A stretch of DNA of 64,000 nucleotides from an uncultured Flavobacteriaceae bacterium (GTDB lineage: Bacteria; Bacteroidota; Bacteroidia; Flavobacteriales; Flavobacteriaceae): assembly GCA_943789465.1 (NCBI GenBank), contig CALSUF010000001.1, positions 372,001 to 436,000 of the forward strand. Reading direction: 5' to 3'. Made by a program: the position numbers and the translations under genes. Position 1 is the first letter of the stretch, and each line of letters opens with the position of its first letter. Below the pieces are notes generated by a model. It was not told the origin of the DNA. It made no database searches and saw nothing but the letters and a program-made list of their open reading frames with translations. Of this stretch, positions 9,541 through 32,618 are shown one piece after another.

Positions 9541-12500
9541 GTGAGCGGTTCAACATTCAATATCTATAATGCTTCGGCTGGTAGTGGTAAAACATTTACC
9601 TTAGTTAAAGACTATTTAAAAATAGTCTTAACTTCCAAAGAATTTTTGCCACATCGTCATGTTTTAGCAATTACCTTTACCAACAAGGCTGTTGATGAAA
9701 TGAAAACTCGGATTGTGGAAGCGTTAATGTCGTTTGCGGCTCCGACTATTTTGACACAGTCAGACGCTTTATTTGAGCAAGTCGTTAGTGAGTTAGGAAG
9801 TTCTCCAAAAGAAATACACTTCAAATCCAAACAACTCCTCAGTAAAATACTGCACAATTATGCAGCATTTGACATTTCAACGATAGATAAATTTACTCAA
9901 AAGCTAATTCGTACGTTTGCATTTGATCTGAAACTTCCCATGAATTTTGAGGTTGAATTGGATACGGATCTTTTGCTACAAAAAGCGGTCAATCGCTTGT
10001 TGTCTAAAGCCGGAAAAAACAAGGCACTCACAAAAGTATTGGTTGAATTTGCGATTGAAAAAGCAGATGATGACAAAAGTTGGAACATCGCTTTAGATTT
10101 AGTTAAAACAGCAAAGTTATTAACCAGAGAAACGGACGCTCCATTTTTAGAGGCACTTTCGCATCGTTCATTACAAGACTTTGGCGCGTTGAAATCAACG
10201 TTATTAAAAGATATTAGTGAAATAGAGATACAAATCATTGAGCTATCAACTCAGGTTTTAGATTTGATTACAGCGAATGGTATTGAGTTTTCAGACTTTA
10301 CAAGAAGCTCTTTGCCAAAACATTTTAAGAACTTAGCGTCTAGAAAATTTGACATTAAGTATGTGGCCGTATGGCAACAGTCTATAGAAACCAGCTCGTT
10401 ATACCCTAAAAAAGTACTGCCGCATGTTGCTGCTGCCATTGAACAGCTTCGACCTCAACTTGTACATGCGTTTCATAAAACAAAAGAAGCTGTCTTTAGA
10501 ATGCGATATTTAAAAAACATTCTAAAAAATACCACCCCACTTTCTGTGTTAAATTTAATACATCAAGAACTTAAAAACATTAAAGATGAAGACAGTCTAT
10601 TGATGATTTCTGAATTTAACACGATTATAAGCCAGCAAATAAAAGACCAGCCAGCCCCTTTTATTTATGAACGTATTGGCGAAAAGTTCAATCACTTTTT
10701 TATTGATGAATTTCAAGACACTTCCGAATTACAATGGGAGAATTTGGTGCCATTATTTACAAATACATTGGCAGAAGAAAACGGGAGTGCCATGCTGGTA
10801 GGTGATGCCAAACAAGCCATTTACCGCTGGAGAGGAGGAAAGGCCGAACAGTTTATCAATTTATACAACAATGCCACGGCATTTCCTTTTGATGCGACAC
10901 TTTCTCACCTTCCAACCAATTATAGAAGCTGTAGGCAGGTGGTTGATTTTAATAACAATTTTTTTAAGCACCTATCAACAGTTGTTTTCTCAAACGACAC
11001 TTACAAATCGTTATATCAGGCGCCTTCTCAGTTAGAGTTTAATAAAAAAACAGGTTATGTAAACATTTCGTTTTTAGAGTTTGAAAAAGGTGCAGACAAA
11101 TCTCTTTTGTATGCAGAAAAAGTTTTAAAAATCATCAAATCCTATTTAGCTTCAAGCAACCAGGCAATGCTGAAAGATATTTGTGTTTTGGTACGAAAAC
11201 GGAAAGAAGGAGTTGCTGTTGCAAACTTATTAAGCCAATCTAAAATTCATATTGTTTCAAGCGAGACTCTTTTAGTAGATCAATCTCCTGAAGTAAAACA
11301 TATTATGAACGTATTGGAGTATGTGCATGAGCCTTCCAATATGAACGCCAAACTGGAGGTTATCAATTATGTTGCATCTCATTCCGACGTAGGAGATCCG
11401 CATTTATTTCGTTTAAAGTGTATTCCATTAAATCCAGCCGCGTTTTTTAAATCTCTAGAAGTTTTAGGATTGAATTTTTCTTCTAAAACCGTTTTGCAAC
11501 TTTCTATTTATGAATCTGTAGAGTATATCATTAGTAGTTTTCAATTGGCAAAAACCTCTAATGCTTACATTCAGTTTTTCTTGGACTTTGTGGTAGAATT
11601 TACTCAAAAACCAATGTCGAGCATTCGTCAATTTATAGATCATTACAATTCAAAAAAAGAGAGCTTAAGCGTTGTGACTCCAAAAGGAATCAATGCTGTC
11701 CAAATAATGACAGTTCATAAATCCAAAGGGTTGGAGTTTCCGGTTGTTATTTTTCCTTTTGCAGAGTTGGATATTTACAAAGAATTGGAGCCGAAAGAAT
11801 GGGTGTCGATGGATCCTTCTTACGCACCTTTTCCACACTTTTTATTGAATTATAATAAGGACTTTGAAGCTTTTGGCGATGAAGGTGCGTCCATTTATAA
11901 GGAGCATCAATCCAAGCTTGAACTCGACAATATCAACCTGTTGTATGTGGCACTCACAAGAGCGGTTGAACAATTGTATGTTGTAGGAAATGCTTCAGTT
12001 TCTAAAAAGACTCCAGAAAAATTAAAAACATATTCGGAACTTCTGATTAATTATCTTAAATCGTCAGGTAAGTGGGAAGACGAAACATTAGAATATGAAT
12101 TTGGGACCTTTGAAAAAATTAAAGCTCCAAACCCCACAAAATATCCAACGGTATTTCAGAAGGAATTTATATCGACCCCAAAAGAACACCTTAATGTATC
12201 GATGGTTACCAATGCAGGATATTTATGGGATACCACACAAAAAGAAGCACTTGAGAAAGGGAATTTGATTCATTTGTTAATGTCAAAGATTTACACCCAA
12301 TCAGATATTGAAATTGCGTTGAATGATTTTTTTAATGCTGGTGTGATTTCATTGCCCCAAAAAGATGCGCTTTCGAGTACATTAGAAGCGATTGTTAGCC
12401 ATCCATTATTGTCTTCTTATTATGTTTCAAATTTAAACGTTTATAACGAAAAAGAAATCATGACTTCAAGGGGAAAAATTATAATTCCTGATAGATTGGT

Positions 12501-29598: not shown

Positions 29599-30441
29599 TT
29601 AGTTGGTGTATAATATTTCTAAAGTCACTTCAGACAAGCTATTGTCTATATTTTGATTTTGAGAGTCTGTAAAAGTCCCTATTTCTAAAAACGTTACATA
29701 GCCGTCATTATCAAAACTATAGGAATAATACTCGGTTTCTGTATAACTTAACACCCCTTCATAATACCTATTTATTTCTTTAGTTAAAGGAAGGTTTGTG
29801 TTGTTTTTTCCATAATAATTTTGAACAGGATAATGCGGTATTAAACTTCCAAAGAAAGGGTGAAATAATTTAGATTTATTTTCAAATGTAGTGTAGGTTA
29901 TGACGGTCTCAAATCTATCATCACCGATACCCTCAGTTCTTATTAAATTTCCATTTTGGTAAATATAGTTTACTCCTGAAGACCCATCATCTGGATTAAT
30001 ACTACTAATATATCCATTGTCATACACAATATTACTAGTGACTTCAATATTACCATCTTCATCATTTGTATTAAATGTATCAATGTAACCATTGTCATTT
30101 AAATCAATTTGAGCTAACTCTCCCATAGAACTAGCTATTAGATATCCATCGAAGTGCTCTATGTAGTTAGTAGAGTTTTGTTCCTCGTATAACAAATCGT
30201 TAGGACATTCTAAGCCGTAGATTTGGGTTTTAAAAGAAGTAATTAAGTTGTCACTATTGTAAATGCAATTAGTGGTATTTGCAGAACGAAAACTACTGTA
30301 ATCCAAACAAGTTTGAACAGAACTAAACGTAACACTTTCTATTAATTTTTCGTTAGATGGATTTGTGTTTTCCTCATTAGAAGCATCATCACTTGAACAA
30401 GCGAAGATTAATAAAGCGGAGAGAAGAATTAGTTTTTTCAT
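29599..30441 (-). CDS. Lipoprotein with repeated beta-hairpin motifs
   Basis: The 280-residue protein has a lipoprotein signal MKKLILLSALLIFACSSDD (lipobox LIFAC, followed by the SDD stretch common in Bacteroidota surface lipoproteins). The body has tandem hydrophilic hairpins (YNSDNLITSFKTQ, YDNGYISSINPDD, YQNGNLIRTEG), typical of DUF4595/YD-like porin-fold lipoproteins; this family name is tentative. The first 16 residues and the DNA around the start are almost identical to those of the next gene upstream. The two genes are three bases apart. Confidence 0.65.
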   Translation of the reverse strand: MKKLILLSALLIFACSSDDASNEENTNPSNEKLIESVTFSSVQTCLDYSSFRSANTTNCIYNSDNLITSFKTQIYGLECPNDLLYEEQNSTNYIEHFDGYLIASSMGELAQIDLNDNGYIDTFNTNDEDGNIEVTSNIVYDNGYISSINPDDGSSGVNYIYQNGNLIRTEGIGDDRFETVITYTTFENKSKLFHPFFGSLIPHYPVQNYYGKNNTNLPLTKEINRYYEGVLSYTETEYYSYSFDNDGYVTFLEIGTFTDSQNQNIDNSLSEVTLEILYTN

Positions 30442-30458
30442 TGGTTAGTTTTTAATAA
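30397..30458. repeat. Signal-peptide cassette repeat, copy 1 (62 bp)
   Basis: This 62-base stretch covers the start and lipoprotein signal of the gene at 29599-30441 plus the last codons and stop of the upstream LamG gene. It matches 31381-31442 at 61 of 62 positions. Such conservation between otherwise unrelated genes points to a recent duplication or gene conversion. Confidence 0.85.
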
Positions 30459-31425
30459 ACTTTTTTGTTGATGAATTTATGCCATCAGAGATTTTAATAA
30501 AATAAACCCCATTTGACAATTCACTTACATCAATCTTATCAACATTACTCTTAGAAAGCACCTTTTTACCTAGAAGGTTAAAAACAGAAATAGATGTTGA
30601 GTTTTTATGGCCCTGTACAAATAGTTGATTATCCGTTGGGTTTGGATATATTGAAATATCTAATTTGTTTTTATGGCTTAGTGAGAGAGTTGAAGAAGAA
30701 TGAATATTCTCAACTTCGTTCTGAGTAAGAGGCCTTGTCCAAATCCCAATATTGTCAAACCATCCATTGTAATATTCAGTAGACCCTCCTCCAATATCGC
30801 CACCAAAATATACACTCATATTGTTGTCATAACAACTTAAATCGGAGGCTTCATTAGAAACTGTTATTAAATTACCATTTACATAAAATGATGTTTGCTG
30901 CCCTTCAATAACATACGTTAATAAATGCCATATATTCCTTTCAATACTGACTAAGTTATCAATATCGTTGAGGCTCTCAGCATATGACCCATTACATTCT
31001 CCTGGTGCGTAATATAAATATCGCCCGTTATATAATGGAGAGGTAGAGTCTGCCCAATTTAAGCCCCATCGCCACCCACCACCAATTGTTCCAAATTGGA
31101 CTTTATTGTGAATGTTATAAGAAACGGCTTTTGTCCAAAATTGAATCGTGAAGTTAACAATATCCAATTCATTATTGGAGGGCAAAATAATCAACTGGTT
31201 TTCTAAATATACAGATTCATCACCATTTTCAAAAGTATCAACAGAATATAAACCATTTGTTGTCCCGTGATTTTCATTGCCACTCAAATCATCAACTCCA
31301 GAAGTGACATTTAGAGGCCAATATCCATATAGCCCATCAGCTGGAATCCAGTCCGGTAATGAACTATCTTGTGAATAACTACAAGCGAATATTAATAAAG
31401 CGGAGAGAAGAATTAGTTTTTTCAT
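30445..31425 (-). CDS. LamG-domain protein with lipobox and T9SS sorting domain
   Basis: The 326-residue protein has a LamG/concanavalin-like domain (about 30-230: GLYGYWPLN, FTIQFWTKAV, GWFDNIGIWTRPLTQNEVE) and a T9SS type A sorting domain (about 250-326: IYPNPTDNQLFVQG, LSNGVYFIKISDG, KKFIKN). Its first 16 residues are identical to the lipoprotein signal of the next gene, with the lipobox LIFACS. The continuation SYSQDS looks like the end of an ordinary signal peptide. T9SS cargo normally uses signal peptidase I, so a lipobox here is unusual and may result from recombination. Confidence 0.75.
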   Translation of the reverse strand: MKKLILLSALLIFACSYSQDSSLPDWIPADGLYGYWPLNVTSGVDDLSGNENHGTTNGLYSVDTFENGDESVYLENQLIILPSNNELDIVNFTIQFWTKAVSYNIHNKVQFGTIGGGWRWGLNWADSTSPLYNGRYLYYAPGECNGSYAESLNDIDNLVSIERNIWHLLTYVIEGQQTSFYVNGNLITVSNEASDLSCYDNNMSVYFGGDIGGGSTEYYNGWFDNIGIWTRPLTQNEVENIHSSSTLSLSHKNKLDISIYPNPTDNQLFVQGHKNSTSISVFNLLGKKVLSKSNVDKIDVSELSNGVYFIKISDGINSSTKKFIKN

Positions 31426-31930: not shown

Positions 31931-32120
31931 AGAAATAATTATCTAAGTAGCTTTGGAACAAAGCGTGTTGAGGAAACTGCTAAAAGCGAAAAGAACAGAA
32001 GTGTCTGTCAAAAGTCTGTCAGTTATTTAGTAAATTTGGACTGTTCTTTGAGATGTTTAAAAATTAAGTGAGAGATGGCTTTTAGTAGCTTTTCGAGACT
32101 GGTTAGAGAGTGAGAGCCAC

Positions 32121-32145
32121 AAAAAACCCCTCAATTAAGAAGGGT
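32121..32145 (-). terminator. Terminator after GIY-YIG / tRNA-half unit
   Basis: On the minus strand ACCCTTC and GAGGGGT pair with one mismatch around a TTAATT loop and run into TTTTTT. It lies just beyond the 3' end of the tRNA-like remnant and would end transcripts from the unit. Confidence 0.55.
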
Positions 32146-32153
32146 ATTCAGGG

Positions 32154-32213
32154 TGGTCCCACATGGGCTCGAACCATGGACCCTCTGCCCCGATAGCTAT
32201 CGGGGGAGTCAGA
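32154..32213 (-). pseudogene. tRNA 3'-half with palindrome replacing anticodon loop
   Basis: On the minus strand this reads TCTGACTC, then the 18-bp palindrome CCCCGATAGCTATCGGGG, then CAGAGGGTCC, a T arm (CATGG-TTCGAGC-CCATG) and the acceptor end TGGGACC plus A. It matches the intact tRNA at 32545-32618 on both sides of the anticodon loop. The T-stem bases differ in a compensated way (CATGG/CCATG in place of CGAGG/CCTCG), so pairing is kept. The D arm and 5' acceptor strand are absent. It overlaps the last codons of the GIY-YIG gene. Confidence 0.75.
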
Positions 32214-32496
32214 CGCTAGTTTGCTTTTTTATTTTATCTACTAGTTCTGGATATTTTTTCAAATTTTCAATAAAAACGCTGCTTTTCATTCGTTTAATTT
32301 TACGTTCGAGTCGAATAGCATGCTTGTTTGTTTCAGTTTGAATTACCAAAAAGCGTTTCCAGTCGTCAGACTTGGAGGTATAAGAAGCGGTGTATTTTTT
32401 GGAGTTATGAGCTTTTAATCTTAGGTCAAAATTAGCACATGATCCTGTATAATACGAATCAAGTTGAGGACTGTATATGACATAACAAAAAGGCAT
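32209..32496 (-). CDS. GIY-YIG endonuclease (95 aa)
   Basis: The single-domain protein starts MPFCYVIYSPQLDSYYTGS, where VIY...YYTG is the GIY-YIG signature. The catalytic arginine is probably in FDLRLKAHN and the glutamate in AIRLERKIKRMKSS. I chose 32496 over the longer frame, which runs back through a terminator and the tRNA gene. The TGA stop lies inside the tRNA-like remnant. The small family is widespread in Bacteroidota as putative endonucleases; the biological target is not established. The position between a tRNA gene and a tRNA half suggests a mobile or homing element. Confidence 0.8.
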   Translation of the reverse strand: MPFCYVIYSPQLDSYYTGSCANFDLRLKAHNSKKYTASYTSKSDDWKRFLVIQTETNKHAIRLERKIKRMKSSVFIENLKKYPELVDKIKKQTSV

Positions 32497-32513
32497 CGAT
32501 TTGGTTTTGATAT

Positions 32514-32539
32514 AAAAAAGCAGCCCTAGAGCTGCTTTT
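32514..32539 (-). terminator. Terminator after tRNA gene
   Basis: On the minus strand AAAAGCAGC pairs perfectly with GCTGCTTTT around a six-base loop and is followed by a T run. It lies a few bases after the 3' end of the intact tRNA gene and just before the GIY-YIG start. Confidence 0.75.
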
Positions 32540-32544
32540 ATCAG

Positions 32545-32618
32545 TGGTCCCACGAGGGCTCGAACCTCGGACCCTCTGATTATGAGTCAGATGCTCTAAC
32601 CAACTGAGCTATGGGACC
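32545..32618 (-). tRNA. tRNA with CAT anticodon (elongator Met or Ile2)
   Basis: The minus-strand cloverleaf is complete: acceptor GGTCCCA / TGGGACC, D arm GCTC...GAGC, anticodon arm TCTGA-CTCATAA-TCAGA with anticodon CAT, variable GGGTC, T arm CGAGG-TTCGAGC-CCTCG, and discriminator A. CCA is not encoded. The loop CTCATAA occurs in both elongator Met and lysidine-modified Ile2 tRNAs, so I cannot decide between them by eye. It lies downstream of mce on the same strand. Confidence 0.95.

Follow-up and report, generated by a model that had tools for sequence, protein, structure and literature searches.

The window (the whole stretch of 64,000 nucleotides analyzed here, from an uncultured Flavobacteriaceae bacterium) contains, on its minus strand, an intact tRNA gene with the anticodon CAT, followed by a terminator-like hairpin, a GIY-YIG nuclease gene, a palindrome, a tRNA 3' part and a second terminator. 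An earlier note, made by a model from the letters alone, had described this layout as far as the tRNA 3' part, including the palindrome and a nuclease stop codon in tRNA-like sequence, and all of these details were confirmed. The features, in minus-strand order, are as follows:

32544..32618 (-), intact tRNA gene, anticodon CAT (elongator Met or Ile2); ARAGORN, Rfam tRNA 73 bits, empty-site comparison
32578-32544 (-), 3' part of the intact tRNA, a component of the inserted unit; empty-site comparison
32506..32540 (approximate) (-), terminator t1, carried by the unit (AAAAGCAGC tctag GGCTGCTTTTTT; T-run)
32209..32496 (-), GIY-YIG nuclease gene, 95 aa; Pfam PF01541, E 1e-10, above the cut-off
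32206..32213 (-), short copy of the tRNA stretch 5' of the anticodon, TCTGACTC
32188..32205 (-), perfect 18-bp palindrome CCCCGATAGCTATCGGGG
32153..32187 (-), displaced original tRNA 3' part, T-stem CATGG/CCATG
32121..32152 (-), original tRNA terminator t0 (CCTGAATACCCTTCTTAATTGAGGGGTTTTTT), directly 3' of the tRNA in empty relatives (L057, L063, L066)

The GIY-YIG open reading frame (ORF) starts with ATG at 32496 (the ORF list also gives an alternative GTG start at 32553, within the tRNA), and its stop codon TGA (32211-32209) falls within TCTGACTC (32213-32206), a part of the tRNA-like tail at whose position the congener G009 has the longer GAGCATCTGACTC. The palindrome substitutes exactly five anticodon-loop bases (tRNA positions 36-40), and it folds as a hairpin in single-stranded DNA. 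The T-stem is CGAGG/CCTCG in the intact tRNA and CATGG/CCATG in the 3' part. A free-standing homing endonuclease would be expected to leave its carrier allele without an intact target; here, the intact tRNA adjoining the nuclease keeps its anticodon arm, and the T-stem alone differs at the window locus. In the Rfam scan, tRNA alone reached the gathering score and no intron family was found; as the tRNA is, in addition, restored at the DNA level, a group I intron with a GIY-YIG ORF was rejected.

Comparison of genomes with and without the insert pointed to which tRNA end is new. In congeners without the GIY-YIG gene, the tRNA-Met gene, located downstream of the same epimerase gene, abuts the second terminator of the window, and the junction reads tRNA-Met and then CCTGAA(A/T)ACCCTTCTTAATTGAGGGGTTTTTT. 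Three such genomes (G011, G004 and G002) were empty, their intact tRNA running straight into the terminator found behind the broken half in the window; the long flank behind this half was also present in G011 and G004 (loci L057 and L063), and the terminator also in L066. Because the tRNA-Met of the empty relatives runs into t0 and the flank, the broken 3' half and its terminator are the original end of the gene, and the 3' half of the intact tRNA is the newcomer. The earlier description, otherwise confirmed, is corrected on this point. With its 391 bp, the insert brought in a fresh 3' half, a terminator of its own, the nuclease gene and the hairpin, and it rebuilt an intact tRNA upstream.

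The empty genes of the genus have the native T-stem alleles CTTGG (most of them), CCTGG and CGAGG, and the compensated T-stem change reported in the earlier note represents such natural allelic variation of this tRNA within the genus. The distal T-stem of the window, CATGG, is not the commonest native allele, and its history therefore includes conversion or array contraction. The unit was present in only two of the congeners with a readable tRNA-Met at the window locus. As a separate observation, the non-coding segment behind the old tRNA terminator (window 31991-32153) is 95-97% identical in G009, G011 and G004, and other congeners have a different sequence behind tRNA-Met; judged from these sequences, tRNA-Met seems to be a hot spot whose downstream ends can be exchanged.

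The same locus in G009 is filled with five tandem units with an exact period of 391 bp. In this array, the sequence of t1 comes after the intact tRNA and after each internal tail, and the last tail is followed by the native terminator; t1 is missing at empty sites. The last (distal) tail has the native T-stem CTTGG/CCAAG, and the proximal tRNA has the unit's CATGG; retention of the common native allele in the distal tail fits an original end, as a Campbell insertion predicts. The proposal of a tRNA-targeting homing or integrative unit (whose mechanism we infer) was supported by the empty and filled sites in one genus and by the tandem 391-bp repeat signature. Moreover, the five tandem units and the phylum-wide recurrence of the architecture show that the arrangement of the palindrome is not due to chance. 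In the same genome, a segment of about 7 kb that ends in a tyrosine-integrase-like gene (L037:4100-10950) separates the five-unit array from a second copy of 1.5 units (10954-11570), and an island seems to have used a broken tRNA-Met tail as its attachment site.

The catalytic Y, Y, G, R, H and E are kept in relatives of the window protein (Y5, Y16, G18, R26, H30 and E64 being invariant or nearly so in an alignment of 21 diverse members), and the protein has the intact catalytic motif of a free-standing homing endonuclease. Comparison of the window genome with G009 gave a dN/dS of 0.12-0.14 for the nuclease gene, which is under purifying selection (dN/dS about 0.13). The dS was 0.27-0.42 for this gene, compared with 1.01, 0.83 and 0.74 for three neighboring genes. 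According to the DNA identity of the epimerase, the two genomes are not closest relatives. The lower dS indicates a nuclease gene younger than the genes that flank it and therefore horizontal movement, and the unit, through transfer or recombination, has been shared at a later time than the genomes. Both traits of free-standing homing endonucleases, patchy presence (empty and filled alleles) and horizontal transfer (dS of the unit below that of all three flanking genes), were thus observed.

Profile comparison gave SLX1 and UPF0213 (BH0048, EF2693) as the best structural relatives. Like the window protein, UPF0213 is a small single-domain GIY-YIG protein, and SLX1 is a larger repair enzyme, a structure-specific nuclease; we know of no tie of UPF0213/SLX1 proteins to tRNA genes. 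Phage and plasmid collections had no match to the GIY-YIG protein of the unit, and membership in the sequence family of SegB, a phage nuclease, was rejected, as the window protein had no PHROG match and tblastn found no phage record. A host function at the RNA level, in which the broken tail would be part of the GIY-YIG transcript and act as a regulator or tRNA-like decoy, or in which the pair would form a defense or toxin module, seems very improbable. The tail does retain parts of a tRNA and a stable hairpin, and GIY-YIG domains are known from a few candidate defense proteins, to which two relatives gave weak partial matches in PADLOC. However, the window protein matched no defense, phage or NCBIfam family, the window tail has no 5' acceptor strand, few congeners possess the unit, and the arrays and both orientations described below suggest mobility rather than regulation.

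A GIY-YIG profile made from 21 relatives was searched in 395 sampled Bacteroidota genomes and had matches in 251 of them, a count that includes other small GIY-YIG families. We assembled a set of 143 loci, about 110 by searching genomes and the rest from named records of genera that include Arenibacter, Psychroflexus, Salinimicrobium, Aequorivita, Algoriphagus, Fulvivirga, Lacihabitans and Kaistella. A tRNA gene on the same strand was located within 260 bp of the GIY-YIG gene in 118 loci (within 100 bp in 98), and 14 tRNA types were used. With approximately 45 tRNA genes in a few Mb, we estimate that about 1 per cent of loci at most would adjoin a tRNA by chance. Among the 118 loci, the intact tRNA was upstream of the GIY-YIG gene in 94 and downstream in 24, and tandem arrays were frequent in the survey. 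The suspected recurrence in flavobacterial genomes was therefore observed in Flavobacteriales and throughout Bacteroidota: the tail is not a lone repeat unlinked to GIY-YIG genes, and both relatives with the insert and a repeat signature exist.

In 79 of 92 loci, a broken copy of the cognate tRNA was detected on the flank that faces away from the intact tRNA. The control was noisy, since T-loop sequence is common to tRNAs: when up to 20 foreign tRNAs were tried, the best of them reached the threshold in 24 of 92. Apart from the hairpin, tail and rebuilt tRNA were often identical (as at positions 45-75 in Val, Ala and Arg), and this frequent identity led us to reject tRNA recoding as a general immunity device. 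On the GIY-YIG tree (115 tips), tRNA type changed 33 times, compared with about 84 at random; thus, units keep one tRNA for long, yet have switched many times.

A second unit type in the genus of the window (L067-L070, in G013, G008 and G001) has the GIY-YIG gene upstream of an intact tRNA-Pro(TGG); in its tRNA-Pro copy, hairpins of another family (GTCACGC...GCGTGAC) replace both the 5' acceptor/D region and the T arm. ARAGORN called the broken tRNA-Val tails at L043:1893-1969, L051:1913-1990 and L052:1326-1405 'tRNA-Sec (tca)', and such false calls are an annotation trap in Bacteroidota genomes. Finally, L125 (G369:C1:540300-545500) has seven tandem GIY-YIG units with a period of about 381 and the hairpin CTCCGAAGCTTCGGAG, with no tRNA recognised nearby; its intact tRNA may have been lost or outgrown.

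The hairpin lay opposite the intact tRNA in 86 of the 118 tRNA-adjacent loci and on the tRNA side in 14, and about one quarter of these loci had no hairpin of the scanned type. It was nearly always TCCCG...CGGGA or a close variant. In 66 loci, where both flanks could be placed, it was positioned exactly inside a copy of the same tRNA, where a defined piece had been replaced, and for most tRNA types this position is fixed. In some Asp units and in many units at Arg, Ala, Val, Lys and Pro tRNAs, the hairpin took the exact place of the 17-nt anticodon arm; elsewhere the replaced piece was five loop bases (Met), part of the T arm (Asp, Phe and Gly) or five bases 5' of the T stem (Asn). The 18-nt type xCCGATAnnTATCGGx, to which the hairpin of the window belongs, was found in 26 of 45 units with window-like proteins and in 0 of 41 others (Fisher 3e-10), and it recurs in the tails of related units, whose tRNAs are those for Met, Asn, Leu, Phe, Thr, Pro and Arg. 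When hairpin class was mapped on the GIY-YIG tree, we counted 24 changes, compared with a mean of 33 and a minimum of 26 when classes were shuffled within tRNA type. A Mantel analysis restricted to pairs with different anticodons gave r 0.19 (0 of 2000 permutations), a modest value in which relatedness is only partly controlled. Thus, hairpin class follows the tree of the GIY-YIG protein, even within a tRNA type, and the palindrome in the tail, with a sequence class that follows the nuclease family, does not appear to be incidental.

Similar hairpins are dispersed over genomes. TCCCGAN(2-8)TCGGGA had 0-111 copies per genome, with a total of 1353 in 97 genomes of the class versus 90 in the reversed control. 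Counts were higher in genomes with a strong GIY-YIG match, the medians being 18 vs 2 and 23 vs 4.5 in two genera of one family and 11 vs 4 in the whole class. Every one of the 10 genomes with a strong window-type protein had the 18-nt form, as did 110 of the 385 others, and within the window's genus the exact palindrome occurred in the two carriers only. G455 and G346 had 41 and 20 TCCCGA hairpins, respectively, and no GIY-YIG match at 1e-6, which could reflect loss or another driver. In the window's genome and genus, the region around the dispersed hairpin is too divergent for a clean insertion to be demonstrated. A lone copy of the palindrome (L001:1501-1518; G000:C1:345107) lies near a glutamyl-tRNA synthetase-like gene, with no adjoining tRNA or GIY-YIG gene.

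This dispersal, and the hairpin-rich genomes without a GIY-YIG match, would fit a separate REP-like repeat that lands in dispensable tRNA copies and is unrelated to the nuclease. We consider this improbable, since hairpins, at a typical density of only tens per genome, lie opposite the intact tRNA in 86 of 118 units and on its side in 14, hairpin class tracks the protein clade within tRNA types, and hairpins are more numerous where strong GIY-YIG matches exist. Nor do the hairpins accompany Y1 transposases: among 30 Y1-transposase loci of hairpin genomes, only two had a hairpin within 1.6 kb and in neither was it flanking, so a HuH/RAYT driver was unsupported.

We give an even chance to the reading that these loci are minimal, homing-like mobile units of about 391 bp, in which tRNA sequence would provide the homology arms and the hairpin would be the nuclease's own or protected site. 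Each unit would consist of a tRNA 3' part, a terminator, the GIY-YIG gene, a short tRNA piece and the hairpin, and would enter a tRNA gene when the tRNA sequence common to both recombines, either in a Campbell-type insertion of a released unit or through copying of a donor locus. The recipient tRNA would then be restored upstream by the 3' part that the unit brings, and the recipient's old 3' part would be pushed downstream behind the hairpin; recombination through the tRNA 3' part reproduces the observed junctions and the allele pattern of G009. Cleavage at the hairpin, release of the unit and the route of recombination are steps that we infer from sequence patterns. The GIY-YIG protein may recognise the hairpin, or a cruciform, at its own unit boundary, and a break there may start the recombination that amplifies, excises or transfers the unit. 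The nuclease would most likely act at the hairpin that marks each boundary, because the hairpin follows the protein family, because the nearest solved relatives include the branched-DNA nuclease SLX1, and because the adjoining intact tRNA keeps its anticodon arm, which an enzyme that cuts tRNA genes could hardly tolerate. Genes for tRNAs may be used since they are conserved between species, multicopy and tolerant of insertion if an intact copy is rebuilt. Several observations weigh against this reading: the hairpin-rich genomes that lack a GIY-YIG match, the uncommon distal T-stem of the window, the modest Mantel correlation, the tRNA-adjacent loci with no scanned hairpin, and the dispersed hairpin that could not be demonstrated to be an insertion.

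The main rival to hairpin-directed recombination is classical free-standing homing, in which the GIY-YIG enzyme would cut the empty tRNA allele, repair would proceed from the carrier, the displaced copy would lose its cut site to the hairpin, and the rebuilt tRNA would be protected by small changes, like the recoded 3' ends in fungal mitochondrial hybrids. There are good precedents for this scheme. SegB of T-even phages, a GIY-YIG homing endonuclease that cuts within tRNA genes, is encoded, as in the window, by a gene among tRNA genes, and recombination amplifies the tRNA/nuclease segment in tandem; unlike the unit, it is phage-borne, and neither a regenerating tRNA end nor a hairpin tail has been described for it (PMC13096335). 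Mobile ORFs have formed gene hybrids in fungal mitochondria, in atp6 of Allomyces macrogynus and in atp6, atp9, cox2 and nad3 of Glomus, where, as in the window, an endonuclease ORF enters an essential gene with a foreign, restoring 3' end and displaces the native end downstream (PMC3630166). The parts of that report considered here concern mitochondrial protein genes, usually with a LAGLIDADG and once with a GIY-YIG endonuclease, and describe no hairpin in the displaced copy (PMC3630166). The unit has the same combination of a restoring and a displaced native 3' end, as seen from terminators t1 and t0 and the empty sites. In addition, the T-stem of both carriers in the window's genus differs from the commonest empty allele, and the fixed hairpin site in most tRNA types would also be expected under classical homing. 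However, we regard this explanation as rather unlikely. First, where the rebuilt tRNA equals the tail outside the hairpin and its anticodon arm is unaltered, as is often the case, the carrier would cut itself. Second, the pieces replaced under one hairpin type (Met loop, Asn variable region/T stem and Phe T loop) share no obvious common site. Third, the near-constant TCCCG...CGGGA would be needless if any disruption sufficed.

Integrase islands at tRNA 3' ends resemble the hairpin-bounded unit, since the tRNA is made whole again when they insert, and a 3' fragment remains at their far end. The unit differs in being only 0.39 kb, in having its crossover in the anticodon-to-T region and in a far copy broken by a hairpin; the GIY-YIG ORF is its sole ORF, and with no tyrosine or serine recombinase in the 391 bp, an integrase-type tRNA island was rejected. 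Y1 transposases are the usual drivers of REPs. The REP/RAYT (TnpA-REP) system shares with the unit short dispersed palindromes whose type is linked to a flanking nuclease gene, and co-evolution of tnpA-REP genes with their cognate REPs has been suggested (PMC6006769, PMC3733652). In agreement with this trait, the dispersed palindromes match the palindrome at the nuclease gene. In contrast to the HuH/Y1 partner of REPs, the unit has a GIY-YIG protein and carries its hairpin within a tRNA copy; with this partner, and with 30 Y1 loci lacking a flanking hairpin, membership in REP/RAYT was rejected.

Our search of the open-access literature (subscription papers and preprints lay outside it) found no published description of the unit. 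We consider it a variant of the homing-endonuclease or gene-hybrid kind, with a real chance that it represents a new, hairpin-based kind of element. A bolder proposal, which we advance tentatively and think somewhat more probably wrong than right, is a new minimal class in which a GIY-YIG nuclease, not a HuH transposase, partners REP-like hairpins and tRNA genes are universal sites of landing and homology. The hairpin would be swapped precisely for a tRNA stem-loop, the tRNA regenerated, and hairpins spread genome-wide by the same machinery. If so, a very large number of small Bacteroidota genes labeled 'GIY-YIG nuclease family' would become an explained class, as units of about 0.3-0.45 kb located next to tRNA genes whose function they preserve. 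They would be among the smallest autonomous mobile elements, would show that a parasite is able to occupy an essential non-coding gene, and would offer a possible driver for REP-like palindromes besides HuH transposases. They would also account for tRNA pseudogenes, for tRNA-Sec calls that are false and, probably, for some of the assembly breaks at such loci.

Elsewhere in the window, two adjacent minus-strand genes (29599-31425) start with the identical signal peptide MKKLILLSALLIFACS and then diverge, a sign of N-terminal recombination or duplication.
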